64,000 bases of DNA, from positions 1-64,000 of the forward strand of contig NZ_FYEZ01000003.1 of assembly GCF_900187395.1 (NCBI RefSeq). The letters are read 5' to 3'. The translations under genes were made by a program, and so were the position numbers. Of this stretch, positions 12,593 through 41,330 are shown one piece after another. How positions within the stretch are numbered: the first letter of the stretch is position 1; every line of letters begins with the position of its first letter. The notes beneath the pieces are model-generated. The model was not told the origin of the DNA, made no database searches, and was given only the letters and a program-made list of their open reading frames with translations. The stretch is from Kytococcus aerolatus (GTDB taxonomy: Bacteria > Actinomycetota > Actinomycetes > Actinomycetales > Dermatophilaceae).

Positions 12593-12648
12593 GCACCGGG
12601 GGGGGGGACGGTGGGGCGGGACGGGGCGGGTGCGGTCAGACTGGGCCG

Positions 12649-28192: not shown

Positions 28193-28333
28193 CCTGACCC
28201 GGGGCGGAGGTCACGGGGTGGTCACGGGGACCCGGTCGTCGGTCACGTTTCGGCACCAATCCCCGGTGGGAGCTGGCCCACCCACCCCCGCCATGTGACT
28301 GTGACCCCACTCACTCACCCTGAAGGAGATCCC

Positions 28334-31300
28334 ATGACCGTGCCCTCGCACCTCACCCGAGTGGGCCTGGCCTCCACGATGGCCATCGCCCTCGCCGGGA
28401 GCCTGCTGCCGGCCACCGCCACCGGCCCCGCCCCCGACCAGGAGGCGACGGACAGGAGCCAGCGCCAGTCCGCCACCGTTCAGCAGGCCCAGGCCAAGCA
28501 GGCCGCGGCCTCCCAGGACTTCACCCACGGCACCTACCTGGTGACCTTCGCCGACCAGCCGGCCATCGCCTACGACGGCCACGTCGAGGGCTACCCCGCC
28601 ACCCAGCCCGGGCAGGGCGCCAAGCTCAACGCCTCCTCCTCGGCCGTCCAGCGCTACGCCGGACTGCTGCACGCGCGCCAGGACCGCGTGCTGGCCAGCG
28701 TCGGCGCAGGCAAGCCCTCGCAGCGCTACACGAACGCCCTCTCCGGTGTCGCCGTCGACCTGACGGCGGACCAGGCCAAGCGCCTCGCGTCCAGCCCGCG
28801 CGTCCTGTCGGTGGTCAAGGAGCGCATCGACCAGCTCGACACCCATCTCTCCCCCGACTTCCTGGGCCTCACCGGCCCAGACGGCGTGTGGAACGCCGGC
28901 ACCGGCTACCAGGGCGAGGGGATGGTCGTCGGCGTCATCGACTCCGGCATCTCCTGGCACAACCCCTCCTTCAGCCCCGAGGGCATGCCGGCCGCCCCGG
29001 CCGACTGGGAGGGCGCCTGCGCCCCGGCCACGAACGACTTCCCGGCCGAGGCCTGCAACAACAAGATCGTGGGCGCCCGCCACTTCGTCGACGGGTTCGG
29101 CGCCGACCGGATCGCCGAGCACGAGTCCCTCTCCCCGCTCGACGTGGGTGGCCACGGCTCGCACACGGCCAGCACCGCAGCGGGCAACAGGGACGTCCCG
29201 GCGATCGCCCAGGACCGCGAGCTCGGTCAGGTCTCCGGAGTGGCCCCGAAGGCCCACGTCGCCGCCTACAAGGTCTGCTGGGACGAGAAGGACGGTGACG
29301 GCGGCTGCGCCAACACCGACTCGGTCGCCGCCATCGACCAGGCGGTCGCCGACGGTGTGGACGTGCTCAACTACTCGATCTCCGGCACCCGCGAGAACTA
29401 CCTCGACCCGGTGGAGATCGCCTTCATGAACGCCTCCGCGAACGGCATCTTCGTGGCGGCGTCCTCGGGCAACAGCGGCCCGGCGGAGTCCACGACGGCG
29501 CACCCCTCCCCGTGGCTCACCACGGTGGCCGCCTCGACCCACGCCATCTCCGAGCAGACCCTCGTGACCGGAGACGGCCGGCGCTACATCGGCGCCTCGG
29601 TCACTGAGGACCTGCCGGACGGTGCCCCGATGATCCTCGCCGACCAGGCGGTCGCCGCCGGCCGCACCGTCGAGGAGGCGCTGCTGTGCCTGCCGGGCTC
29701 ACTGGACGCCGCGAAGGTGGCGGGCAAGATCGTGGTCTGCGACCGCGGGGAGAACGCCCGCACCGAGAAGTCCGACACCGTGGCCGAGGCCGGCGGCGTG
29801 GGCATGGTGCTCGTGAACACCAGCGAGAGCTCCCTGGACTCCGACCTTCACGTGATCCCGACGGTCCACCTCTCTCACACCCACCGGGACGCGGTCCGCG
29901 CCTACGTGGAGGGAGCGGGGCCGGAGGCGACCGGCACGATCCTCGACAGCAACGAGGGCACCACCACCGAGGTCCCTGAGATCGCCGGGTTCTCCTCGCG
30001 CGGCCCGTCGCTGGCCGGGTCCGGCGACGTCCTCAAGCCCGACATCTCCGCCCCGGGAGTGGGCGTCCTCGCTGCCAGCGCCAGCCCGGAGCGGGGGGCG
30101 GACGTGTTCGAGTACATGTCCGGCACCTCGATGAGCTCCCCGCACATCGCGGGTCTGGCCGCCCTGGTCAAGCAGGCCAACCCCAGCTGGACCCCGATGG
30201 CGGTGAAGTCCGCCCTCATGACCAGCGCGCGGGACCACGCCAGCGCGGCGAGCAACGATCCCTTCGCCACCGGTGCCGGGTTCGTGGAGCCGCGCCGCAT
30301 GCTCAACCCGGGTCTGGTGTACGACGCGAACCAGTCGGACTGGTTCGACTTCCTCGCCGGCCAGGGGGCCACCTACTCCGACGGCTCCCCCGTCTCGGAG
30401 AACCCGATCGACGCCTCCGACCTCAACCAGGCCTCCATCGCCATCGGTGAGCTGCTGGGGGACCAGACGGTCACCCGCACCATCACCAACGTGAGCGGGA
30501 GGGCCACCACCTGGGAGGCCTCCTTCTCCGGGCTGGAGGGCGTGGAGGCGACCGTCTCCCCGTCGACCGTGGACCTCGGCCCGGGCGAGTCGGCCGAGGT
30601 GGAGGTGACCTTCACCGACGTGGGCCTCGCCGACGGCGCCTGGTCCAAGGGGCACCTGATCTGGTCGGCCACCGGCCAGAGCGACGTGCGCTCCCCCATC
30701 GCCCTGCGCGCCCGGGACATCTCCGCCCCGGCGATCGTCCACGAGTCGGCCGCCGCCCCCTCGGTGGACATCCCGATCACCAGCTCCGACGACCGCAGCG
30801 TGGACATGGAGGTCAAGGGCCTGGTGCCGGGCGAGGACGTCGCGGCCTCGGTGGGCATGCCCGCGGACAACTCGGACCTCATCGTCGACGACCCGAACAA
30901 CCTGCGGTACGACGTCACGATCACCGAGGGCGAGCAGCTCTGGTCGGAGATCATCCCGGCCGACACCTCGACGGACCTCGACCTGTTCGTCACGCCCAAG
31001 GGCAGCGACCAGCTGGTGGGCATGTCGGCCGCGGCCGGAGCCGAGGAGCAGGTGCTGCTGCCGGACCTGGAGCCGGGCGAGTACACCGTGCACGTCCAGG
31101 CGTGGAACCTCAACGGCCAGGCGAGCACCGACCTCACCCTGCGCACCTTCGAGGTGCCGGACGAGGACCAGGGCAATCTGACTTTCGACGACCCCGTGCA
31201 GCTGCCGCGCAAGACCGAGACGGACGTCACGGGCGCCATCGGCGTCGACGACGTGACGCGGGCCTGGCTGGGTGAGGCCGTCGTCACCGAGAACGGTCAG

Positions 31301-32275
31301 GAGCTCGACTCGACCTACGTGTACCTGGACCCCGCCGAGGGCGGTCCGGTGGATCCCTCGCTGACCCGCCTGTGGGGCTCGGACCGCTACGGCACGGCGG
31401 CTGACGTGGCCTCCGAGTTCGGCGCCTCCGACACCGTCTACATCGCCTCCGGCGAGGGCTTCGCGGACGCGATGTCGGGTTCGGCCGGCGCCGCCGCGGG
31501 TGTGCGTTCGACCAAGGGCCTGCCCTCCGTGAACGGCGAGGACCTGCCACTGCTGCTGACCCGCAGCGACCGTGTGCCGGCTGCGACCTCGGAGACCCTG
31601 GCCGAGCTGGGGGCGAAGAAGGTCATCCTCATCGGTGGTGAGACCGCGATCAGCCCGGCCGTGGCCGACGAGCTGGCGGCGCAGGGCCTCACCGTCGAGC
31701 GCATCGGCGGCGCCACCCGGTACGAGACCAGCGCCAACGTGGCCATGCGCTTCGAGCCCGGCGTCGAGACGGTCTACCTGGCCTCCGGCGAGGGGTACGC
31801 GGATGCCGTGACCGGCACCGCTCTGGCCGGTTCGCAGAACACCCCGGTGCTGCTCACCGACCCGGACGAGCTGCGCCCGGAGACCGCGGCGGCCCTCGAG
31901 GCCCTGCAGCCGCAGAGGGTCGTGGTGCTCGGCGGGCCGGCGGCGGTGTCCGACGCCGTCCACCAGGCCGCCGGGGCCTCGGAGCGGCTGGCCGGTTCGG
32001 ACCGCTACGAGACCTCCGTGAAGATCTCCGAGGCCTTCGGTGAGCGGGACCTCTCGTCCTTCGCCAGCGGCCTGGACTTCCCGGACGCCCTGGCCGGTGC
32101 GGCCCTCGCTTCGAGGAACGACGGCCCTGTGCTGCTGACCCGCCCGGACCGCGTGCCGGCCCCGGTGGCCGAGCACGTGGCGGCGAACCAGACGTCGGAG
32201 AACTACCTCTTCGGTGGGACCACCGCGGTGTCGGAGCAGGTCGAGAACGAGCTGCGCGCACTGCTCGGTCTCTGA
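28334..32275 (+). CDS. Secreted S8 subtilase with PA domain and three CWB2 cell-wall-binding repeats
   Basis: A 1313-residue pre-pro-protease. Signal peptide about 1-30; I9-type propeptide (about 60-170, GTYLVTFADQP, RYTNALSGVAVDLT); subtilisin catalytic domain with Asp203 (VIDSGI), His274 (GGHGSH), oxyanion Asn380 (SGNSGP) and Ser599 (SGTSMSSPH). A PA domain (GKIVVCDRGENARTEK) is inserted before the Ser. Fibronectin-like C-domains follow, then three CWB2 (PF04122-type) repeats from about residue 1010 (LWGSDRYGTAADVAS). CWB2 repeats bind secondary wall polymers, so the enzyme should stay on the cell surface. A 17-bp terminator follows. Confidence 0.93.
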   Translation: MTVPSHLTRVGLASTMAIALAGSLLPATATGPAPDQEATDRSQRQSATVQQAQAKQAAASQDFTHGTYLVTFADQPAIAYDGHVEGYPATQPGQGAKLNASSSAVQRYAGLLHARQDRVLASVGAGKPSQRYTNALSGVAVDLTADQAKRLASSPRVLSVVKERIDQLDTHLSPDFLGLTGPDGVWNAGTGYQGEGMVVGVIDSGISWHNPSFSPEGMPAAPADWEGACAPATNDFPAEACNNKIVGARHFVDGFGADRIAEHESLSPLDVGGHGSHTASTAAGNRDVPAIAQDRELGQVSGVAPKAHVAAYKVCWDEKDGDGGCANTDSVAAIDQAVADGVDVLNYSISGTRENYLDPVEIAFMNASANGIFVAASSGNSGPAESTTAHPSPWLTTVAASTHAISEQTLVTGDGRRYIGASVTEDLPDGAPMILADQAVAAGRTVEEALLCLPGSLDAAKVAGKIVVCDRGENARTEKSDTVAEAGGVGMVLVNTSESSLDSDLHVIPTVHLSHTHRDAVRAYVEGAGPEATGTILDSNEGTTTEVPEIAGFSSRGPSLAGSGDVLKPDISAPGVGVLAASASPERGADVFEYMSGTSMSSPHIAGLAALVKQANPSWTPMAVKSALMTSARDHASAASNDPFATGAGFVEPRRMLNPGLVYDANQSDWFDFLAGQGATYSDGSPVSENPIDASDLNQASIAIGELLGDQTVTRTITNVSGRATTWEASFSGLEGVEATVSPSTVDLGPGESAEVEVTFTDVGLADGAWSKGHLIWSATGQSDVRSPIALRARDISAPAIVHESAAAPSVDIPITSSDDRSVDMEVKGLVPGEDVAASVGMPADNSDLIVDDPNNLRYDVTITEGEQLWSEIIPADTSTDLDLFVTPKGSDQLVGMSAAAGAEEQVLLPDLEPGEYTVHVQAWNLNGQASTDLTLRTFEVPDEDQGNLTFDDPVQLPRKTETDVTGAIGVDDVTRAWLGEAVVTENGQELDSTYVYLDPAEGGPVDPSLTRLWGSDRYGTAADVASEFGASDTVYIASGEGFADAMSGSAGAAAGVRSTKGLPSVNGEDLPLLLTRSDRVPAATSETLAELGAKKVILIGGETAISPAVADELAAQGLTVERIGGATRYETSANVAMRFEPGVETVYLASGEGYADAVTGTALAGSQNTPVLLTDPDELRPETAAALEALQPQRVVVLGGPAAVSDAVHQAAGASERLAGSDRYETSVKISEAFGERDLSSFASGLDFPDALAGAALASRNDGPVLLTRPDRVPAPVAEHVAANQTSENYLFGGTTAVSEQVENELRALLGL

Positions 32276-32303
32276 TTCATCGGCTGGTCCCCCCAGCCGC
32301 CCT

Positions 32304-32341
32304 CCCGAGGGCCCCGGTCGAGAGCGACCGGGGCCCTCGGG
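32304..32341 (+). terminator. Rho-independent-type terminator after the PA-domain subtilase
   Basis: Perfect 17-bp stem (32304-32320 with 32325-32341), loop AGAG, starting CCCGAGGGCC, about 30 bp after the stop codon. Followed by CC TTCG rather than a T tract. Confidence 0.8.
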
Positions 32342-32431
32342 CCTTCGCCCGGGAAGCCCCCACGAAGAGCAGGGACGTGTCACCGTTCTCCGGGCCTCCG
32401 GGGACCCCCCGGCACGAACCTCCCCGGTGAC

Positions 32432-32460
32432 TTGTCTCACCACCGTTCCCCGGTTAGATT
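32432..32460 (+). promoter_or_regulatory. Promoter of the second subtilase gene
   Basis: TTGTCT (32432-32437), 17 bp, TAGATT (32455-32460): a good sigma-70-like pair for a high-GC actinobacterium. It lies about 100 bp ahead of the GTG start, leaving a roughly 95-nt leader. Confidence 0.6.
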
Positions 32461-32559
32461 CCGAGGGCAGGCACGGGGGGACGGGCCTCTCGTGTTACCC
32501 GGAGGTCCCTACTGCTGGTGGGACCGAGGATCGACTGCTCTCATACGAAGGGGAACACC

Positions 32560-34746
32560 GTGAAGAACACCGCCACCCGCGCGCTCACTGCCGCTGGGGT
32601 CGTCGGCCTGTCGCTGGGCATGATGCCCGGCGCCGTCGCCGCCACCGACACCGTCGCCGCCCAGGCCGAGAAGGCCGAGTACATCGTCATGCTCGAGCAG
32701 CCGTCCTCGGTCAAGACCGCCGGCGGGCTCGACAGCGCCCGAGGCAAGGCCTCCGCCCAGGCCTTCACGACCAAGGCCGTGAAGGCCTACGAGGCCCAGG
32801 GCATCGAGGTCTCCTCCACCTACAAGACCCTCAGCGGCTTCGCCGCCGAGCTCACCCCGGCCCAGGTCGCCCAGCTCGAGGCCGACCCCTCGGTCTCCTC
32901 GATCGCCAAGAACGAGAAGATGCAGGCCGCCGACACCCAGGAGAACCCGCCTTCGTGGGGCATCGACCGCATCGACCAGCAGGACCTCCCGCTGGACGCC
33001 TCCTACACCTACCCCACCACCGGCGCCGGTGTGACCGCCTACGTGCTCGACACCGGCATCAACGCCGCCCACCAGGACTTCGGTGGCCGCGTGCAGGCCG
33101 GGACCGACACCACGGGTGAGGGCACCGATGGTCGCCTGGACTGCCAGGGTCACGGCAGCCACGTCGGCGGCACCGTGGGCGGCGCCACCGCCGGCGTCGC
33201 CAAGGGTGCCTCCATCGTCCCTGTCCGCGTTCTGGACTGCAGCGGCTTCGGCAGCGACGCGAACATCATCGGCGGCATCGACTGGGTGACCGCCAACGCG
33301 CAGGGCCCCTCTGTCGCCAACCTCAGCCTCGGCGGCATCTCCCCGGGTGAGAACCCGGCCCAGGACGAGGCCCTCCTCCGCATGGAGGACGCTGGCGTCC
33401 TGGCCGTGCTCGCCGCGGGCAACGAAAGCGACGACGCGTGCAACTGGTACCCCGGCAACGGTGAGGCCGGCATCAACGTGGGCGCCACCGCCCCGGACGA
33501 CGCCCTCGCCGGGTACTCGAACTACGGCTCCTGCGTCGACATCCTCGCTCCGGGCAGCGACATCATGTCCGCCTCCCACGAGAACAACACCGAACTGGTC
33601 CCGATGTCGGGCACGTCGATGGCTGCCCCGCACGTGGCTGGCGCCGCGGCCCTGTACCTGGAGCAGAACCCCCAGGCCACCCCGGCCGAGACCAAGCAGG
33701 CTCTCCTGGACGCTGCTGCGGTCGACAAGATCAGCAACCCGCTGGGATCCCCGAACCTGCTGCTGAACATCGAGAACCTCATCGAGGAGCCGGAGCCCGA
33801 GCCGGAGCCCGAGCCGGAGCCCACCCCGGAGCCCGGGCTGGAGCGTTGGTGGGGTGCTGACCGGTACGGCACCGCCGCCGAGACCGCCGTGAAGTCCGGC
33901 CAGGCCGACACCGTCTACATCGCCTCCGGCCAGGGCTTCGCCGACGCCGTCACCGGCGGCACCGCCGCCCAGGCCCGCGTCATGTCCATGCCCGACGGCA
34001 GCAACGACGACCCGATCCTGCTCACCAAGCGCGACACCATCCCGGCCGACACCACCGCCGCCCTGCAGCAGCTGGGCACCCAGAAGGTCGTCCTGGTCGG
34101 CGGCACCGAGGCCATCTCGACCCAGGTCGAGAACCAGCTCGCCGACATGGGCCTGACCATCGAGCGCATCGACGGCTCCGACCGCTACGAGACCAGCGCC
34201 AACGTCACCAAGGAGTTCGGCCAGACCGACACCCTCTACATCGCCTCCGGCGAGGACTCGGCCTACGCCGACGCCCTCTCCGGCTCCGCCCTGGCCGGCG
34301 CCCAGGACGTCCCGATCCTGCTCACCCAGCCCGACCAGGTCCTCCCGACCACCCAGGACGCCATCGACGCCGTCAACCCCAAGAACGTCGTGGTCCTCGG
34401 TGGCGAGAACGCAATCACCCCGGCCGTGGCCAACCAGCTCGGCGCCACCAAGCGCATCGCCGGCGCCGACCGCTACGCCACCAGCGTGGAGATCGCCAAG
34501 GAGTTCGACGGCAACGAGTGGACCTTCTTCGCCACCGGCCTGGACTACCCCGACGCCCTCACCGGCGGCGCCGCCGCCGCGGCCCAGGACAGCCCCCTGC
34601 TCCTGACCCGCGACAACAAGCTGCCGTCCGTCGTCAACGAGTACGTCGCGGCCAACCCCACCGAGAAGAACGTCATCATCGGTGGCATCGACGCCATCTC
34701 CCAGGGCGTCGAGGACACCCTCAAGGGCACCCTCGGCATCGCCTGA
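32560..34746 (+). CDS. Secreted S8 subtilase with I9 propeptide and three CWB2 repeats
   Basis: A 728-residue surface protease. Signal peptide 1-28 (MPGAVAA), I9 propeptide about 43-125 (YIVMLEQP, GFAAELTPAQ), proteinase-K-like catalytic domain with Asp164 (VLDTGI), His198 (GHGSH), Asn288 (AAGNES) and Ser353 (SGTSMAAPH), a repeated Glu-Pro linker (about 410-425), and three CWB2 repeats from 427 (LERWWGADRYGTAAET). I used the GTG at 32560, preceded by GAAGGGGAA, because it gives a normal signal peptide. It shares 136 identical bases with the decayed paralogue downstream. Confidence 0.93.
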   Translation: MKNTATRALTAAGVVGLSLGMMPGAVAATDTVAAQAEKAEYIVMLEQPSSVKTAGGLDSARGKASAQAFTTKAVKAYEAQGIEVSSTYKTLSGFAAELTPAQVAQLEADPSVSSIAKNEKMQAADTQENPPSWGIDRIDQQDLPLDASYTYPTTGAGVTAYVLDTGINAAHQDFGGRVQAGTDTTGEGTDGRLDCQGHGSHVGGTVGGATAGVAKGASIVPVRVLDCSGFGSDANIIGGIDWVTANAQGPSVANLSLGGISPGENPAQDEALLRMEDAGVLAVLAAGNESDDACNWYPGNGEAGINVGATAPDDALAGYSNYGSCVDILAPGSDIMSASHENNTELVPMSGTSMAAPHVAGAAALYLEQNPQATPAETKQALLDAAAVDKISNPLGSPNLLLNIENLIEEPEPEPEPEPEPTPEPGLERWWGADRYGTAAETAVKSGQADTVYIASGQGFADAVTGGTAAQARVMSMPDGSNDDPILLTKRDTIPADTTAALQQLGTQKVVLVGGTEAISTQVENQLADMGLTIERIDGSDRYETSANVTKEFGQTDTLYIASGEDSAYADALSGSALAGAQDVPILLTQPDQVLPTTQDAIDAVNPKNVVVLGGENAITPAVANQLGATKRIAGADRYATSVEIAKEFDGNEWTFFATGLDYPDALTGGAAAAAQDSPLLLTRDNKLPSVVNEYVAANPTEKNVIIGGIDAISQGVEDTLKGTLGIA
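33838..33973 (+). repeat. 136-bp block identical to 36883-37018
   Basis: The start of CWB2 repeat 1 is identical base for base in the intact protease and in the decayed paralogue. A further block of about 115 bp from 34529 is also essentially identical there. This degree of identity, with the catalytic domains much more diverged, indicates recent gene conversion or recombination. Confidence 0.85.
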
Positions 34747-34788
34747 ACCACCCCGTGACGCAGACTCCTCAGGGAGTCCGCAACACCA

Positions 34789-34826
34789 CCGAGGCCCCCT
34801 CTCCCACCCAGGAGAGGGGGCCTCGG
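34789..34826 (+). terminator. Terminator after the second subtilase gene
   Basis: Perfect 16-bp stem (34789-34804 with 34811-34826) beginning CCGAGGCCCCC, loop of six, then CATTCC. Located 43 bp past the stop codon. Confidence 0.8.
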
Positions 34827-34875
34827 CATTCCCCACGCCCCCACGCCAGCGGTCGGCCCTCCGTGGCGGTGCCCC

Positions 34876-34904
34876 TTGTGGCGGGCACCAGGGAGAGATA
34901 CGGT
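34876..34904 (+). promoter_or_regulatory. Candidate promoter of the free I9 gene
   Basis: TTGTGG (34876-34881), 17 bp, TACGGT (34899-34904). Acceptable actinobacterial spacing, about 75 bp before the ATG, just after the preceding terminator, implying independent expression of the small gene. Confidence 0.4.
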
Positions 34905-34980
34905 CAAGGGCGAGCAGGGTCCTGGGAAAGCCCCTCAGGACACGGCCGATCTGCGGTGTCGGGACCCTGGACAGGGAGGG

Positions 34981-35391
34981 ATGATCGTGGCCAAGTGGTG
35001 GTGGGTGCTGCTGCTCCTGGGCGGGATCGCACTGGCAGTGAGCCTGGCGGGAGGCACGAAGGGCGGCTCGGCGCCCGAGCCGGAGGCGGAGCAGACCAAG
35101 TACATCGTGATGCTCAAGGACCCGGAGTCCCTGCCCGCGGACAGTGGACGCACCACCGCCGAGGGCAAGAAGGCGATTCGGGAGAACACCGAGTCCGTCG
35201 TCCGCGAGATGGAGGAGCAGGGGATCGAGGTGACCCACACCTACGCCACGATCGGTGGTTTCGCTGCCCTCCTCACCGAGGACCAGAAGAAGACCCTCGA
35301 GGACGACCCGCGGGTGTTCACGATCTCCGAGGACATGGAGGTGCGTGCCAGCACGCCGACGGTCTCGGCGTCGCGGCCCTCTGCTTCCTGA
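34981..35391 (+). CDS. Free-standing I9-type protease propeptide/inhibitor with N-terminal membrane segment
   Basis: A 136-residue protein with no catalytic domain. An N-terminal hydrophobic segment (WWWVLLLLGGIALAVSLAGG, about 6-25) serves as signal or anchor, then a full Inhibitor_I9 fold: TKYIVMLKDPESL, an acidic helix, GIEVTHTYATIGGFAALLT, and DDPRVFTISEDMEV. The same elements occur in the propeptides of both flanking subtilases. Stand-alone I9 proteins elsewhere (fungal IA-1/POIA1) inhibit subtilisins or act as folding chaperones in trans. ATG at 34981 follows CAGGGAGGG. Its own promoter and terminator frame it. Alternative: remnant of a truncated protease, but the frame stops cleanly. 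Confidence 0.78.
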   Translation: MIVAKWWWVLLLLGGIALAVSLAGGTKGGSAPEPEAEQTKYIVMLKDPESLPADSGRTTAEGKKAIRENTESVVREMEEQGIEVTHTYATIGGFAALLTEDQKKTLEDDPRVFTISEDMEVRASTPTVSASRPSAS

Positions 35392-35404
35392 CACGGCTGC
35401 TCGA

Positions 35405-35445
35405 CGCTGCTGGGGACCCACCGTGATGGTGGGTCCCCAGCAGCG
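35405..35445 (+). terminator. Terminator after the I9 gene
   Basis: Perfect 18-bp stem (35405-35422 with 35428-35445), beginning CGCTGCTGGGGACC, loop GTGAT, followed by TTCTC. Fourteen bases past the stop. Confidence 0.82.
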
Positions 35446-35484
35446 TTCTCCGAGCCGGCACATCGCGGGGCGACTTGCCGTGGT

Positions 35485-35496
35485 CCCCCCCCCCCC
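35485..35496 (+). repeat. Twelve-C homopolymer in the promoter region of the decayed protease
   Basis: A run of 12 C lies between TTGCCG (35475-35480) and TTGTCT (35505-35510), the counterparts of the -35 and -10 of the intact paralogue. The spacer is 24 bp here versus 17 bp there. Confidence 0.7.
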
Positions 35497-35615
35497 GGAT
35501 GGGGTTGTCTGAGGGCAGCGGGCCCGGGGGATGGGCCCTCGGCACGGGGGCCGGGATCTGAGGCAGATCACGGGAAGCACGCCGTGCGCCGCCCGCACGC
35601 ACGAAGGGGGACACC

Positions 35616-37274
35616 ATGAAGAAGATCGCCAGCCACACGTTGAGCGCAGCCTGCATCGCCGGGCTGTCGATGGGGATGGCGCCCGGCGCCGTCGCCGCCG
35701 GGCAGAGCGTTGCCACCCAGGCCGAGAAGTCCGAGTACATCGTCGTTCTGAAGCAGCCGTTGACCGTGCGGTCCGCCGGGGGGGGCTGGACGCCGCGAAG
35801 GGCAAGGCCGCCGCACAGGCCCACACCACCCGGACCGTCTCCGCCTACGAGGCCCAGGGCATCCAGGTGACCAACACCTACAAGACGCTCGGTGGCTTCG
35901 CCGCCGAGCTCACCCCGGCCCAGGTGGCCCAGCTGAAGGCCGACCCGACCGTCGCCTCCATCGCCGAGAACGGGGAGATCCGCCCGGCCGACGTGCAGGA
36001 GCCCACGCCGTCGTGGGGCATCGACCGGATCGACCAGCAGGACCTCCCGCTGGACGACCGCTACAGCTACGGCGCGACCGGAGCCGGCGTCAACGCCTAC
36101 CTCCTCGACACGGGCATCTGGGGCAGCCACCAGGAGTTCGGTGGCCGGGTCCTCCCCGGTTTCGACGCCGCGGGCGAGGGGACGGACGGTCTGACGGACT
36201 GTGGGGGGCACGGCACCCACGTGGCCGGCACCATCGCCGGCGAGACGGTCGGCGTGGCCAAGGACGTGAACCTCACCTCGGTCAAGGTGTTCAGTTGCGC
36301 CGGTGAGGGCACCTGGGAGTGGGCCTGGGCTGGCATGGACTGGGTGGCCGAGAACGCCGAGGGGCCGGCTGTCGCCCACCTGAGCCTGTACAGCACCGGA
36401 CAGTCCCCCACCACCGACGAGGGGTGGCGCGTCTCGAGCAGGCGGGCATCACGGTCACGAAGGCCGCTGGCAACGACGCAGAGGACGCCTGCGGGTTCAT
36501 GCCCGGCAACTCCCCGGGCGGGATCACGGTGGGCGCGACCGGCAGCTACGCCGGCGAGGTCGACGTTCAGGCCGACTACTCGAACTTCGGGTCCTGCGTG
36601 GACATCATGGCGCCGGGCACCGGGATCAACTCCGCCTCCAACGCCGACGACTCCAGCCTGCTGCTCATGGATGGCACCTCCATGTCCACGCCGCACGTGA
36701 CCGGAGCCGCCGCCCTGTACCTCGAGCAGCACCCGGACGCAGCTCCGGACGAGGTCTACCAGGCCCTCCTGGACGCCGCCGCGGTGGACAAGCTGAGCGG
36801 TCTGAACGGTTCCCCGAACCTGCTGCTGAACATCGAGAACCTCATCGAGGAGCCGGAGCCCGAGCCCACCCCGGAGCCGGGGCTGGAGCGTTGGTGGGGT
36901 GCTGACCGGTACGGCACCGCCGCCGAGACCGCCGTGAAGTCCGGCCAGGCCGACACCGTCTACATCGCCTCCGGCCAGGGCTTCGCCGACGCCGTCACCG
37001 GCGGCACCGCCGCCCAGGACGTCCCGGTCCTGCTCACCCAGCCCGACCAGGCTTCTTCGCCACCGGCCTGGACTACCCCGACGCCCTCACCGGCGGCGCC
37101 GCCGCCGCGGCCCAGGACAGCCCCCTGCTCCTGACCCGCGACAACAAGCTGCCGTCCGTCGTCAACGAGTACGTCACGGCCAACCCCACCGACAAGAACG
37201 TCATCATCGGTGGCACCGCCGCCATCTCGGCCGGTGTCGAGGAAACCCTCAAGAACATCCTCGGCATCGCCTGA
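35616..37274 (+). pseudogene. Decayed S8 subtilase/CWB2 gene (two frameshifts, collapsed repeat array)
   Basis: Closely parallels the intact gene at 32560. Signal peptide and I9 start are intact (MKKIASHTLSAAC, YIVVLKQP), then the frame shifts in an 8-G run at 35778-35785 (6 or 9 G would restore it). The catalytic Asp (LLDTGI) and His (GHGTHVAG) follow. A second shift at the GGGG near 36421-36424 needs one more G. The oxyanion Asn (KAAGND) and Ser (DGTSMSTPH) are present. In the CWB2 region about 517 bp are missing relative to the paralogue, not a multiple of three, joining repeat 1, 2 and 3 fragments and shifting the frame again at about 37050. The G-run shifts could be sequencing errors; the deletion cannot easily be. 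Confidence 0.85.
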
Positions 37275-37281
37275 ACCACCC

Positions 37282-37363
37282 CGCTCGGGATGGGTAGTGC
37301 CCTGCCCATCCCGAGCGCTCGGCCACCCGTGATGGCCCCACCCATCCGGGGAGGGGCCATCAC
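37282..37363. terminator. Two tandem terminator hairpins between protease and two-component genes
   Basis: First stem 13 bp (37282-37294 with 37305-37317), second 11 bp (37329-37339 with 37353-37363). They lie between convergent transcripts and probably stop both. Confidence 0.72.
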
Positions 37364-37394
37364 CCCTTCCTCGGCAGGGGGTCCGGGTCCGGCC

Positions 37395-38066
37395 CTACCG
37401 GCTCCCCGCATCGTGGACGCGGATCGCCACCTGCACGCGATTCTCCGCCCCGAGCTTGGCCATGACCCGGGAGACATGCGCCTTGACCGTGGGCACCGAA
37501 AGGAACAGGCGATGCGCGATCTCGGCGTTCGAGAGACCGTCGGCAACCGCATCGGCCACGTCACGCTCGCGGGGAGTCAGTGCGGCGAGGGCGCTCTGCG
37601 CCGCCTGCACCCGGGCGTCGTGGGGTGAGCAGGCCGCCACCTGGCTCACCAGGAGCGCGGTCACCGCCGGGGAGAGGGCGTGCACGCCCGAGGCCACGTC
37701 ACGCACCGCGGAGACGAGCTGCTCCGGCGGGGTGTCCTTGAGCAGGAAGCCACGCGCCCCCGCCCGGAGCGCCTCCACCACCAGGTCGTCGGCGTCGAAG
37801 GTCGTGAGCACCAGGACGACCAGCTCGGGCCACCGGGCCAGGAGGTCACGGGTGGCGGTGATGCCGTCGCGCTGCGGCATCCGGATGTCCATGAGGACCA
37901 CGTCCGGGTGGTGCCGGTGGACGAGCTCCACGACGTCGAGGCCGTCCGCGCCCTCCCCCACCACCTCGAGGCCGGAGGCACCACCCAGCAGCAGCCGCAG
38001 CCCGGTGCGCACCATCGGGTCGTCGTCGACCAGGACCACGCGCAGGGGGCGCTCACCGTCGGTCAC
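37395..38066 (-). CDS. LuxR-family response regulator (NarL type)
   Basis: A 223-residue two-domain regulator. Receiver with acidic pair VLVDDDP, phospho-acceptor Asp60 (LMDIRMP), Thr in LVLTTF and Lys in LLKDTPP; C-terminal LuxR helix-turn-helix LTPRERDVADAVADGLSNAEIA and VKAHVSRVMAKLG. Its GTG overlaps the kinase stop (GTGA), so the two are co-translated. Likely target is the divergent ABC transporter operon at 39546, a common arrangement for this pair in actinobacteria (inference). Confidence 0.93.
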   Translation of the reverse strand: MTDGERPLRVVLVDDDPMVRTGLRLLLGGASGLEVVGEGADGLDVVELVHRHHPDVVLMDIRMPQRDGITATRDLLARWPELVVLVLTTFDADDLVVEALRAGARGFLLKDTPPEQLVSAVRDVASGVHALSPAVTALLVSQVAACSPHDARVQAAQSALAALTPRERDVADAVADGLSNAEIAHRLFLSVPTVKAHVSRVMAKLGAENRVQVAIRVHDAGSR

Positions 38067-39382
38067 CGTTCCTCCTCCTCGTGCCCTGCGGTCGGGCGGC
38101 CGTCCGTGCTGGGTCGGTCCTGCTCGTCCGCCTCGACCCTGCCCCACGGCAGCCAGGCGTCCACCACGAAGTCTGCACCGGCGTCGCGCACCGCCAGCCG
38201 GCCGCCCGCGAGGTCGACCCGCTCGCCCATCCCCGCCAGCCCGAAGCCCGAGCCGTCACCCCGGGGGGCACCCGGGACCCGCGGGTTGGCGATGCGGAGC
38301 GTCAGGCCACGTGCCTCATCCCCGTCCACCACCACGTCGACCACTGCGCCGGGAGCGTGCTTGCGCGCGTTGGTGAGCGCCTCCTGCACCACCCGGTAGG
38401 CGTGGCGGCCGGTGCGGGCGGGCAGGCCCACCGCCCGGGGCCAGAAGTCCTCGGGCACGCGGAGGCGGACCGGGGTGCCGGCTCGCTCGGTCTCGGCCAC
38501 CAGGTCCGGCAGGGCCAGCAGGTCCGGCTGGGGTGCCTCCCGGGGCCCCTCGGTGATGTCCTCCGCGCGCAGCACACCCAACGTGGCCCGGAGCTCCTCC
38601 AGGGCGGTGTGGCCGTTGCGGCGGATCGTCTCGGCCGCCTCGCGCACCTCCTGCGGGCTGAGGTCCTCCCGGTAGGACAGGGCCCCGGCGTGCATGGTCA
38701 TCACCGAGATGCGGTGGGCCAGAACATCGTGCATCTCGCGGGCGATGCGGGTGCGCTCGGCCAGCCGGGCCTGGGCGGTGCGGGCGCCCTGCTCGCGCCG
38801 GGCCGTCTCGGCCTGGATCCGCCAGGACTCGGTGAGCTGGCGCCGTCCGCCGAGGTTCCACCCCCACAGGGCCGCCACCGCCAGCATCAGCCCGGACGTC
38901 ACCACCACGACCAGGAGCCAGATCCCGCGGCTGGCGTCCGGGGAGAGCACCGGTGCCACGAGTGCCTCGTAGAGGGTCACCGTCAGCAGGCTGCTGACGC
39001 CCACGCCCAGCACCGGGCGCCACCGGCGGTGCGCGGCCAGGGAGACCAGGCACAGCAGCGCCGCCGGTGAGGCGAACACCGAGAGGCTCGTGAGGGCGGC
39101 CGTCAGCAAGGCGATGACGACCGGCCTCCGACGACGCCACCCCGCCAGCACCACGGCCACCTGGCCGAGCAGCAGGTCGACGGCCAGGAGCCCGTCGACG
39201 ATCCCGAGCGGGGTGTCACCGGCCAGGTGGTCCGGATGGGCGGCAGGGCTCGTGCCGAAGGTGGACAGCCACAGGATCGCGCCGAGCACCCAGACCACGA
39301 CGAGCCGCCAGGCGTGCCCCAGCCACGGCAGTGGCCAGGGAGCGGGAGTGGCGGCAGGATCGGGGCCGGCGGTGGCGCTCAT
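38063..39382 (-). CDS. Sensor histidine kinase (HisKA_3 type)
   Basis: A 439-residue membrane kinase. N-terminal half has about four to five hydrophobic helices without an obvious extracellular domain, suggesting sensing within the membrane. A linker helix (RIQAETARREQGARTAQARLAERTRIARE) leads to the HisKA_3 motif EMHDVLAHRIS with phospho-His218, followed by ATPase boxes VVQEALTNARKHAPG and GFGLAGMGERV. I chose the ATG at 39382 over an Arg-rich upstream extension. Partner of the overlapping response regulator. Confidence 0.92.
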   Translation of the reverse strand: MSATAGPDPAATPAPWPLPWLGHAWRLVVVWVLGAILWLSTFGTSPAAHPDHLAGDTPLGIVDGLLAVDLLLGQVAVVLAGWRRRRPVVIALLTAALTSLSVFASPAALLCLVSLAAHRRWRPVLGVGVSSLLTVTLYEALVAPVLSPDASRGIWLLVVVVTSGLMLAVAALWGWNLGGRRQLTESWRIQAETARREQGARTAQARLAERTRIAREMHDVLAHRISVMTMHAGALSYREDLSPQEVREAAETIRRNGHTALEELRATLGVLRAEDITEGPREAPQPDLLALPDLVAETERAGTPVRLRVPEDFWPRAVGLPARTGRHAYRVVQEALTNARKHAPGAVVDVVVDGDEARGLTLRIANPRVPGAPRGDGSGFGLAGMGERVDLAGGRLAVRDAGADFVVDAWLPWGRVEADEQDRPSTDGRPTAGHEEEER

Positions 39383-39545
39383 GCGCCGCAGCGTATGGGG
39401 CACGCACCGGCGGCGACAGCGTCGTCGGCAGGGGGTCACCCCCTCCTTTGGTCAGGGTGCACTCCTCCGGCCGCCGACCGACGGACCGCGCGCTCGATGC
39501 CTCTGGCCGATGTGTCGACCCCGCAGCCCTCGACACGCTGCGGCC

Positions 39546-40439
39546 ATGATCCAGATCGAGAATCTCACCAAGCGCTACGGGCGCTTCACCGCCGTCGACG
39601 GCATCAGCCTCACCGCCGAGCCGGGGCGCATCACGGGCTTTCTCGGCCCCAACGGGGCGGGCAAGTCCACCGCGATGCGGATGCTCGTGGGTCTCACCCC
39701 GCCCACCTCCGGCACCGCCACCGTGCTGGGCCGCCGCTACGTGGATCTCACCAACCCGGCAGCCCAGGTGGGCACGATGCTCGACGCCAGCGCCCAGCAC
39801 GCCGGCCGCACCGGGCGGGAGGTCCTCACGCTGGCCGCGATGATGGCCGGCGTCGGCCGGGCCGAGGTGGACCGCGCCCTGGAGCGGGTCGCGCTGACCC
39901 CGGCCGAGGCGGACCGCCGAGTGGGCAGGTACTCGCTGGGCATGCGGCAGCGGCTCGGACTGGCCGGCGCCCTGGTGGGTGACCCGGAGGTCCTCGTCCT
40001 CGATGAGCCGGCCAACGGCCTCGACCCCGCGGGCATCCGATGGATGCGCAGCCTGCTCCAGGAGTTCGCCGACGAGGGCGGCACCGTCCTGCTCAGCTCG
40101 CACCTCCTCCACGAGGTGGAGCAGGTGGCCGACGACCTCGTGGTGATCGGCCGGGGCCGGATCGTGGCCCGGGGGACGAAGGAGGAGCTCCTGCGCAGCA
40201 GCAGCACCTTGGTGGACTCCCCCGAACGGGCCCGCCTCGGCCAAGCCCTCGCCCGCGCCGGGCTCCCCGCGGAGGCCCACCCCACCGGTGGCTTCCTGGT
40301 GGAGGCCGGGCCCGAGCCGCTGGCCCGCCTGGCGCTGGCCGAGCAGCTGCCGCTCACCGAGGTGCGCCCCGGCGACCAACGCCTGGAGGAGCTCTTCCTC
40401 TCCCTGACGGCCGACGACGCCCGGGAGCACAGCGCATGA
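39546..40439 (+). CDS. ABC transporter ATP-binding protein
   Basis: A 297-residue ABC ATPase of the CcmA/BcrA drug- or bacteriocin-resistance type. Walker A GPNGAGKST at about 34-42, signature YSLGMRQRLGLA, Walker B VLVLDEPANGLDP, and H-loop LLSSHLLHEVE. A C-terminal extension of about 80 residues resembles the DUF4162-like tail. It overlaps the following permease gene by 4 bp and is divergent from the two-component pair that probably controls it. Confidence 0.93.
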   Translation: MIQIENLTKRYGRFTAVDGISLTAEPGRITGFLGPNGAGKSTAMRMLVGLTPPTSGTATVLGRRYVDLTNPAAQVGTMLDASAQHAGRTGREVLTLAAMMAGVGRAEVDRALERVALTPAEADRRVGRYSLGMRQRLGLAGALVGDPEVLVLDEPANGLDPAGIRWMRSLLQEFADEGGTVLLSSHLLHEVEQVADDLVVIGRGRIVARGTKEELLRSSSTLVDSPERARLGQALARAGLPAEAHPTGGFLVEAGPEPLARLALAEQLPLTEVRPGDQRLEELFLSLTADDAREHSA

Positions 40440-41323
40440 ACACCCCGTCCGTCCAGACCACCCCGCTGACCACACACGACCCCGCAAAGGAAGCCATGCC
40501 CAGCGCCACCGCCCCGTCCACCCCGCAGCCCGTCGCCGCGCCCGCCGACGCAACCACCGCGCCGAAGGACCGCTTCGCGCCCCGGCCCGTCTCCTTCACC
40601 CGTCTGGTCCGGGTGGAGCTCCGCAAGGCTCTGGACACCCGGGCCGGCCAGGGACTCCTGGTGGCGATCGCCCTGCTCTCGGCCCTGTCCCTCGGGCTCG
40701 TCCTGTGGTTCTCCCGGGAGCAGGGCGCCGGTTTCGGCGCCCTGCTGGGCGCGGTGGCCGTGCCGCAGGGGGTGCTCCTGCCCGTGCTGGGCATCCTCAC
40801 CGCGTGCAGCGAGTGGAGTCAGCGCACGGCGCTGGTGACCTTCACCCAGGAGCCGCGCCGGCTGCGGGTGATGGCCGCCAAGTCCGTCGCAGCCGTCCTC
40901 ATCGGTCTCGGCGTGCTGGCGCTCACCATCGCGGTCTCGGCCGGGGCGCACGTCCTCTCGGCGGGCCTGGCCGACACCCCGGTCTCGGTGGACCTGGGCG
41001 CGGCCCGACTGGTCAACCTCACCCTCCTGCAGACGGCCAACGTGCTGCTGGGCGTCGCCTTCGGCGCCCTCTTCCTCAACACCCCTGCCGCGGTGGTGGC
41101 CTTCTTCCTCATCCCGTCGATCCTGCCGATCGCCCTGACCTTCGTGCCCTTCCTGCGGGAGCACGCCCCGTGGTTCGACATGGACGTCTTCGCCGTCGAG
41201 CTGGCCGGAGGAGAGTGGCTGACGCGGCAGGACTGGCTGCACCTGGCCTCGAACCTGGGGATCTGGCTGGTGCTGCCCCTGGTGGTCGGGCTGATCCGGG
41301 TGAGCCGCAAGGAGATCGGCTGA
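40436..41323 (+). CDS. ABC-2 type transporter permease
   Basis: A 295-residue membrane protein with six hydrophobic segments after a Pro/Ala-rich cytoplasmic N-terminus of about 55 residues. The first helix follows VRVELRKALDTRAGQG, the usual opening of ABC-2 permeases; TACSEWSQRTALVTFTQEPRR is the conserved elbow between helices. Start overlaps the ATPase stop (ATGA). Acts with the ATPase to export or resist an envelope-active compound (inference). Its stop is 7 bp from the convergent hspR stop. Confidence 0.9.
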   Translation: MNTPSVQTTPLTTHDPAKEAMPSATAPSTPQPVAAPADATTAPKDRFAPRPVSFTRLVRVELRKALDTRAGQGLLVAIALLSALSLGLVLWFSREQGAGFGALLGAVAVPQGVLLPVLGILTACSEWSQRTALVTFTQEPRRLRVMAAKSVAAVLIGLGVLALTIAVSAGAHVLSAGLADTPVSVDLGAARLVNLTLLQTANVLLGVAFGALFLNTPAAVVAFFLIPSILPIALTFVPFLREHAPWFDMDVFAVELAGGEWLTRQDWLHLASNLGIWLVLPLVVGLIRVSRKEIG

Positions 41324-41330
41324 GCCCCGC

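Follow-up and report, generated by a model that had tools for sequence, protein, structure and literature searches.

What does a subtilase propeptide do when it is encoded as a gene of its own among the subtilases of Kytococcus aerolatus? In the window, by which we mean the whole 64,000-nucleotide stretch of DNA analysed, an Inhibitor_I9 domain is encoded in a short frame that lies, just as a preliminary description had it, between an intact subtilase (32560) and a broken one (35616), each of which carries an I9 domain together with a protease. Inhibition in trans by I9 proteins is proven in fungi, plants and parasites, and we consider here whether this protein could act in the same way on subtilases of its own cell, could help them to fold, or is what remains of a lost protease gene.

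The free-standing I9 gene and its predicted fold

The frame at 34981–35391 on the forward strand encodes 136 residues, as previously described, with one amendment to its start. Judged from the sequence, GTG at 34987 is more likely to be the start codon than ATG at 34981, because a Shine-Dalgarno-like GGAGG (34975–34979) sits 7 nt from the former and 1 nt from the latter; the gene would then occupy 34987–35391 (+) and its product would be 134 residues long. This is genuine coding DNA, with GC contents by codon position of 0.63/0.49/0.91 that resemble those of the neighbouring genes, whereas the intergenic stretches on both sides have a flat GC content of about 0.7 and a between-gene GC3 of 0.69 compared with 0.91 in the gene.

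The sole domain of the frame is Pfam Inhibitor_I9 (PF05922), the subtilisin propeptide-like family, located at residues 40–123 (35098–35349, +) and covering profile positions 1–81 of 82 with an E-value of 2.9e-8. The score of 34.7 bits places it within the family (cut-off 21.2), beside 33.0 and 30.4 bits for the two intact neighbouring subtilases, and the earlier assertion that the domain is complete is thus borne out. An AlphaFold model built from a 4-row alignment has a pLDDT of about 85–92 across most of the domain and the topology of a propeptide, with both ends disordered. The best PDB matches to this model found with Foldseek are the prosegments of pro-subtilisin E and BPN' (3whi, 3cnq and 1spb), with other S8 propeptides and POIA1 bound to subtilisin BPN' (1v5i_B) also among the matches. 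The Foldseek probability is 1.00 to 1spb_P, 3cnq_P and 3whi, but with E-values no better than about 1e-3 and a TM-score of about 0.65 by prosegment length, the assignment of a predicted subtilisin-propeptide fold relies on sequence and structure jointly. When the single protein served as a sequence query against solved structures, polyubiquitins ranked at the top, a result that we rejected as a spurious effect of summed scores; the only sensible matches were the propeptide chains 8c4z and 8c4x.

The argument that the domain reflects more than chance draws on the profile E-value, the codon-position GC content and a simulation of neutral decay, in which the propeptide of 32560 was substituted until it showed an equal count of differences (108 of 264 bases; n = 1000). 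The I9 profile score of the drifted sequences had a mean of 0.3, a standard deviation of 5.9 and a maximum of 22.5, against 55 for the observed gene, and none of the 1000 runs scored as high, nor did any of 1000 with half the number of changes. The gene therefore did most of its diverging while selection maintained the I9 fold. This signal is not proof of selection after release as a free-standing form, and it could predate that event and stem from a fused stage. Pairwise dN/dS values are uninformative because the synonymous sites are saturated, and the intact propeptides also exceed 1 at a GC3 near 0.96.

A fused origin of the signal would suit the strongest rival to a functional gene, which is that deletion stripped a third tandem subtilase of its catalytic and wall-binding parts and left behind a functionless propeptide, complete with start, stop and terminator, that has so far escaped decay. 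We regard this as the less likely of the two. The frame, GC3 and I9 score of the free-standing gene are all intact, while the neighbouring copy at 35616 has frame changes at three places, and further evidence on both sides comes from the ends of the gene and from its neighbours.

The ends of the gene

The N-terminal hydrophobic segment WWWVLLLLGGIALAVSLAGG (34996–35050, +) has a highest 19-residue Kyte-Doolittle mean of 1.95, and the N-terminus as a whole, MAKWWWVLLLLGGIALAVSLAGG, differs from the neighbours' signal peptides, which are less hydrophobic. The hydrophobic stretch reported in the preliminary description is thus present, and it may be either a membrane anchor or a signal peptide cleaved at S-L-A|G-G.

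At the other end, alignments with the paralogues show the segment SEDMEVRAS-TPTVSASRPSAS after the domain, with a tail (35341–35391, +) in which V-R-A-S is followed by a low-complexity extension of 12 residues. V-R-A-S aligns with I-R-P-A of the broken neighbour and M-Q-A-A of 32560 at P4–P1, and it retains a hydrophobic P4 and a small P1 in a protein whose remainder has diverged to 42–46% identity. We take the processing site of the paralogues to lie just before the mature enzyme, as in the aqualysin-type subtilases. As a candidate ligand of the S4–S1 sites the tail therefore matches its paralogues in alignment, yet 12 further residues come after it, while in classic I9 inhibitors such as POIA1 the chain generally stops at this point. 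The propeptide of BPN' caps two helices of the protease with Glu69 and Asp71 (PMC6993865); in the alignment the I9 protein keeps the acid at the Asp71 position and has Ser at the Glu69 position.

No S8 catalytic remnant was found within the frame, nor in any frame of 35301–35620. This bears on two of the alternatives. An error of assembly or sequencing could in principle have split a normal subtilase here, and there are a C12 run at 35485–35496 and a G8 run at 35778–35785 nearby, with other short I9 frames in the databases being of this kind; but with no remnant in any frame, and with the next gene beginning with a signal peptide and an I9 domain of its own, we consider an error very improbable. 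The missing remnant also speaks against a stranded propeptide, as does the manner in which the gene ends: a break near the domain boundary, a 20-bp hairpin 11 nt past the stop codon and an N-terminus unlike that of the paralogues are together more than one plain deletion would produce.

That hairpin (35403–35447, +) is terminator-like with a perfect stem of 20 bp (MFE -55 kcal/mol for 73 nt, z -7.5), and a similar one with a perfect 16-bp stem follows the upstream subtilase (34789–34826, +; MFE -55.5 kcal/mol for 94 nt, z -7.9), so that the fold energies of the two flanking hairpins are 7.5–7.9 standard deviations below those of shuffled sequences. Both are omitted by a consensus terminator scan because they have no U tract, and the consensus scan found neither a promoter nor a U-tract terminator for the I9 gene; a weak TTGTGG-17-TACGGT pair at 34876–34904 was seen by eye only. 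Of the promoter and terminator attributed to the gene beforehand, the terminator is therefore well supported by the two perfect hairpins that flank the gene, and the promoter has no consensus match. The N-terminus that is unlike the paralogues and the gene's own 3' hairpin together suggest a separate expression unit.

The subtilase array and its origin

The gene order, with names inferred from sequence, is clpB (-), the subtilases 28325 and 32560, the I9 gene and the broken subtilase 35616, followed by a response regulator and sensor kinase (-), ABC transporter genes, a MerR gene (-) and a DnaJ-like gene (-). The large subtilase (28325–32275, +) is intact, with I9, S8, PA, fn3_6 and CW_binding_2 domains, and has a 62% identical orthologue in a congener. 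The intact subtilase at 32560–34746 (+) has a signal peptide, an I9 domain, a Peptidase_S8 domain with the D/H/S motifs present and three CW_binding_2 stretches. The broken one (35616 to about 37274, +) is a pseudogene that has lost the cell-wall repeats.

In patches, the DNA of the I9 gene is 69–80% identical to the parts of 35616 and 32560 that encode their propeptides, the I9 half of the broken subtilase being the closest. In an I9 tree, in which rows L010, L012 and L014 are on the wrong strand and are to be disregarded, the gene groups with these same two propeptides, a grouping that pairwise identity and DNA similarity bear out as well. Its branch, at 1.14, is the longest in the local clade, compared with 0.13–0.16.

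The congener sample is one genome (G008, 2,785,024 bp), in which the MerR and DnaJ-like genes come immediately after clpB, one other subtilase and the orthologue of 28325. Between the 28325 orthologue and MerR it has no 32560, no I9 gene, no broken subtilase and no two-component/ABC block, and DNA resembling 34747–35615 was not found in this genome. Its three I9 matches all lie in long frames. The catalytic domain of 32560 has its nearest counterpart there, at 49% identity, in the orthologue of a pair of subtilases on another contig of our genome (C5). Taken together, the patchy DNA identity, the tree grouping and the lack of an array in the congener indicate that the free-standing I9 gene is a derived paralogue of a lineage-specific subtilase array.

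As a separate observation, the segment missing between the syntenic neighbours in the congener amounts to a block of about 9 kb (32300–41330) that contains the two subtilases, the I9 gene, the two-component pair and the ABC genes.

On contig C5, an in-frame TAG interrupts the I9 domain (C5:917084–917353; L027, L033) of the subtilase C5:917105, which lies beside a second, uninterrupted subtilase, C5:919119, the I9 of which is in an open frame. On the strength of their sequences, the subtilase arrays of this genome are decaying at two places, the 35616 region and contig C5. These features count in favour of a propeptide stranded by deletion: a lineage-specific array with a pseudogene adjoining, a stop codon within the I9 of another subtilase, DNA similarity that places the origin of the gene in the array, and the longest branch of its clade. 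The evidence from the gene's ends and its intact frame, GC3 and I9 score counts against it.

Search for other free-standing I9 genes

When 188 family genomes and 399 phylum genomes were searched with PF05922, about 300 matches were listed, and among these there was no other free-standing short I9 frame in either sample; the other short I9 frames among them all run into S8, whether or not the frame changes, or end near a contig end. Short I9 frames elsewhere that could be mistaken for free-standing relatives (two in G175, and one each in G112, G658, G720, G804, G672, G838 and G963) were set aside, each being a frameshift, a truncation or the end of a contig. With the I9 protein as query against samples of the family, order and class, the matches listed were only subtilases and one non-I9 match; a 125-residue frame (L069) was rejected as a relative as it is without I9. 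A plasmid search gave no match, and in the open-licence literature we found no bacterial stand-alone I9 protein.

The expectation that relatives might keep the I9 gene beside intact subtilases was thus not upheld, in that the one congener has neither gene nor array and the searches elsewhere found no free-standing relative; conversely, none of the genomes examined has a full-length protease in place of the I9 gene. The free-standing gene may be unique to this one lineage. We do not claim uniqueness among bacteria, because the samples were drawn at the level of Actinomycetota and the matches were those listed, and because public databases name bacterial single-domain I9 proteins. With the gene seen in a single genome, there is no orthologue to show selection on the free-standing form.

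A proposed trans-acting inhibitor

By analogy with known systems, we propose as the likeliest reading that the free-standing I9 protein is a trans-acting inhibitor of the same cell's subtilases, either held at the surface or released, and we judge the chances for and against this to be evenly balanced. A duplicated subtilase propeptide would have become a separate gene, with its product on the outer face of the membrane or released from there. The I9 beta-sheet would lie against the two helices on the surface of a mature catalytic domain, while V-R-A-S would occupy the S4–S1 sites in the way that a bound product does. The likeliest target would be the cell-wall-bound 32560, the nearest intact paralogue, followed by 28325 and the paralogues on contig C5, and the purpose would be to shield the surface of the producing cell from its proteases once these have shed their built-in propeptide. 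Several points weigh against the proposal: occurrence in one genome only, the 12-residue extension, the retention of only one of the two BPN' acids, the lack of a consensus promoter and the setting in a decaying array.

There are precedents for such a role. Three well-characterised stand-alone I9 inhibitors, from a fungus, a yeast and a plant, are joined by apicomplexan ones; it has been suggested that stand-alone proteins of this sort may be products of convergent evolution, and potent inhibition is the property common to the characterised ones (PMC6993865). Bacillus subtilisin propeptides also inhibit heterologous subtilisins (PMC10580911). Pleurotus POIA1, the yeast proteinase B inhibitor and Arabidopsis SPI-1 resemble our protein in having a single protease-free I9 domain and, judging by the alignment, a substrate-like tail, and the same fold is predicted here; they differ in being small, stand-alone eukaryotic products, whereas ours is bacterial, with a hydrophobic N-terminus, a 12-residue C-terminal extension and a putative inhibitory activity. 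Plasmodium SUB1-ProM and Toxoplasma MIC5 are stand-alone propeptide mimics on the secretory route, as this protein may be, and the SUB1-ProM gene adjoins subtilase genes at a syntenic locus (PMC6993865), although it is conserved throughout its genus and its inhibition is demonstrated, while the I9 gene is in a single genome. The propeptides of bacterial subtilases (BPN'/E, 32560 and 35616), from the array members of which the I9 gene descends, share its Pfam family and predicted fold, but they are followed by a catalytic domain, which our protein lacks, and have a different N-terminus. Bacillus subtilis IPI is likewise bacterial and is reported to inhibit a same-cell subtilase, the intracellular subtilisin Isp1 (PMC3901451), but it is intracellular and has an Ig-like fold rather than I9.

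The same anatomy could serve a membrane-held propeptide that templates the folding of subtilases as they leave the Sec channel, for example those with damaged propeptides. Subtilisin propeptides are folding templates, the I9 of C5:917105 contains a stop codon and that of 35616 is split, and the Aeromonas sobria protease ASP uses a separate protein, ORF2, as external chaperone and inhibitor (PMC5638518). ASP is described as propeptide-deficient, which sets ORF2 apart, since the subtilases here retain I9. The two subtilases with damaged propeptides are broken as genes and so provide no expressible client, and because every intact subtilase here has its own I9, including 32560, 28325 and the open frame C5:919119, a chaperone is an unlikely reading. 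The anatomy, fold and coding signal fit a trans-acting I9 protein in general, and of the two roles first suggested for it, inhibitor or chaperone, the chaperone is the weaker.

More tentatively than we propose inhibition itself, and with less than even confidence, we suggest that this is a surface-anchored, self-protective bacterial I9 inhibitor recently released from a decaying array, a counterpart of SUB1-ProM and POIA1 caught early. The source is visible here, an I9 propeptide with its parent array still alongside, and if the protein is active it would be a small bacterial inhibitor of surface proteases and would offer a direct view of a protease's own propeptide becoming a separate regulator. 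A relative in the same genus is linked to skin keratin degradation.

Other features of the array

Over their last 232 bp the intact (34524–34755) and broken (37052–37283) subtilases share 94% identity, compared with about 75% elsewhere, a pattern that suggests gene conversion or recombination between the ends that bind the cell wall. The C12 run lies upstream of the broken subtilase and the G8 run at its first frame change, and these could be either phase-variation tracts or sites of sequencing error. Homopolymer runs of at least seven bases are rare in the window, with five in total, and among them a G10 run (12598–12607) lies away from the region studied.
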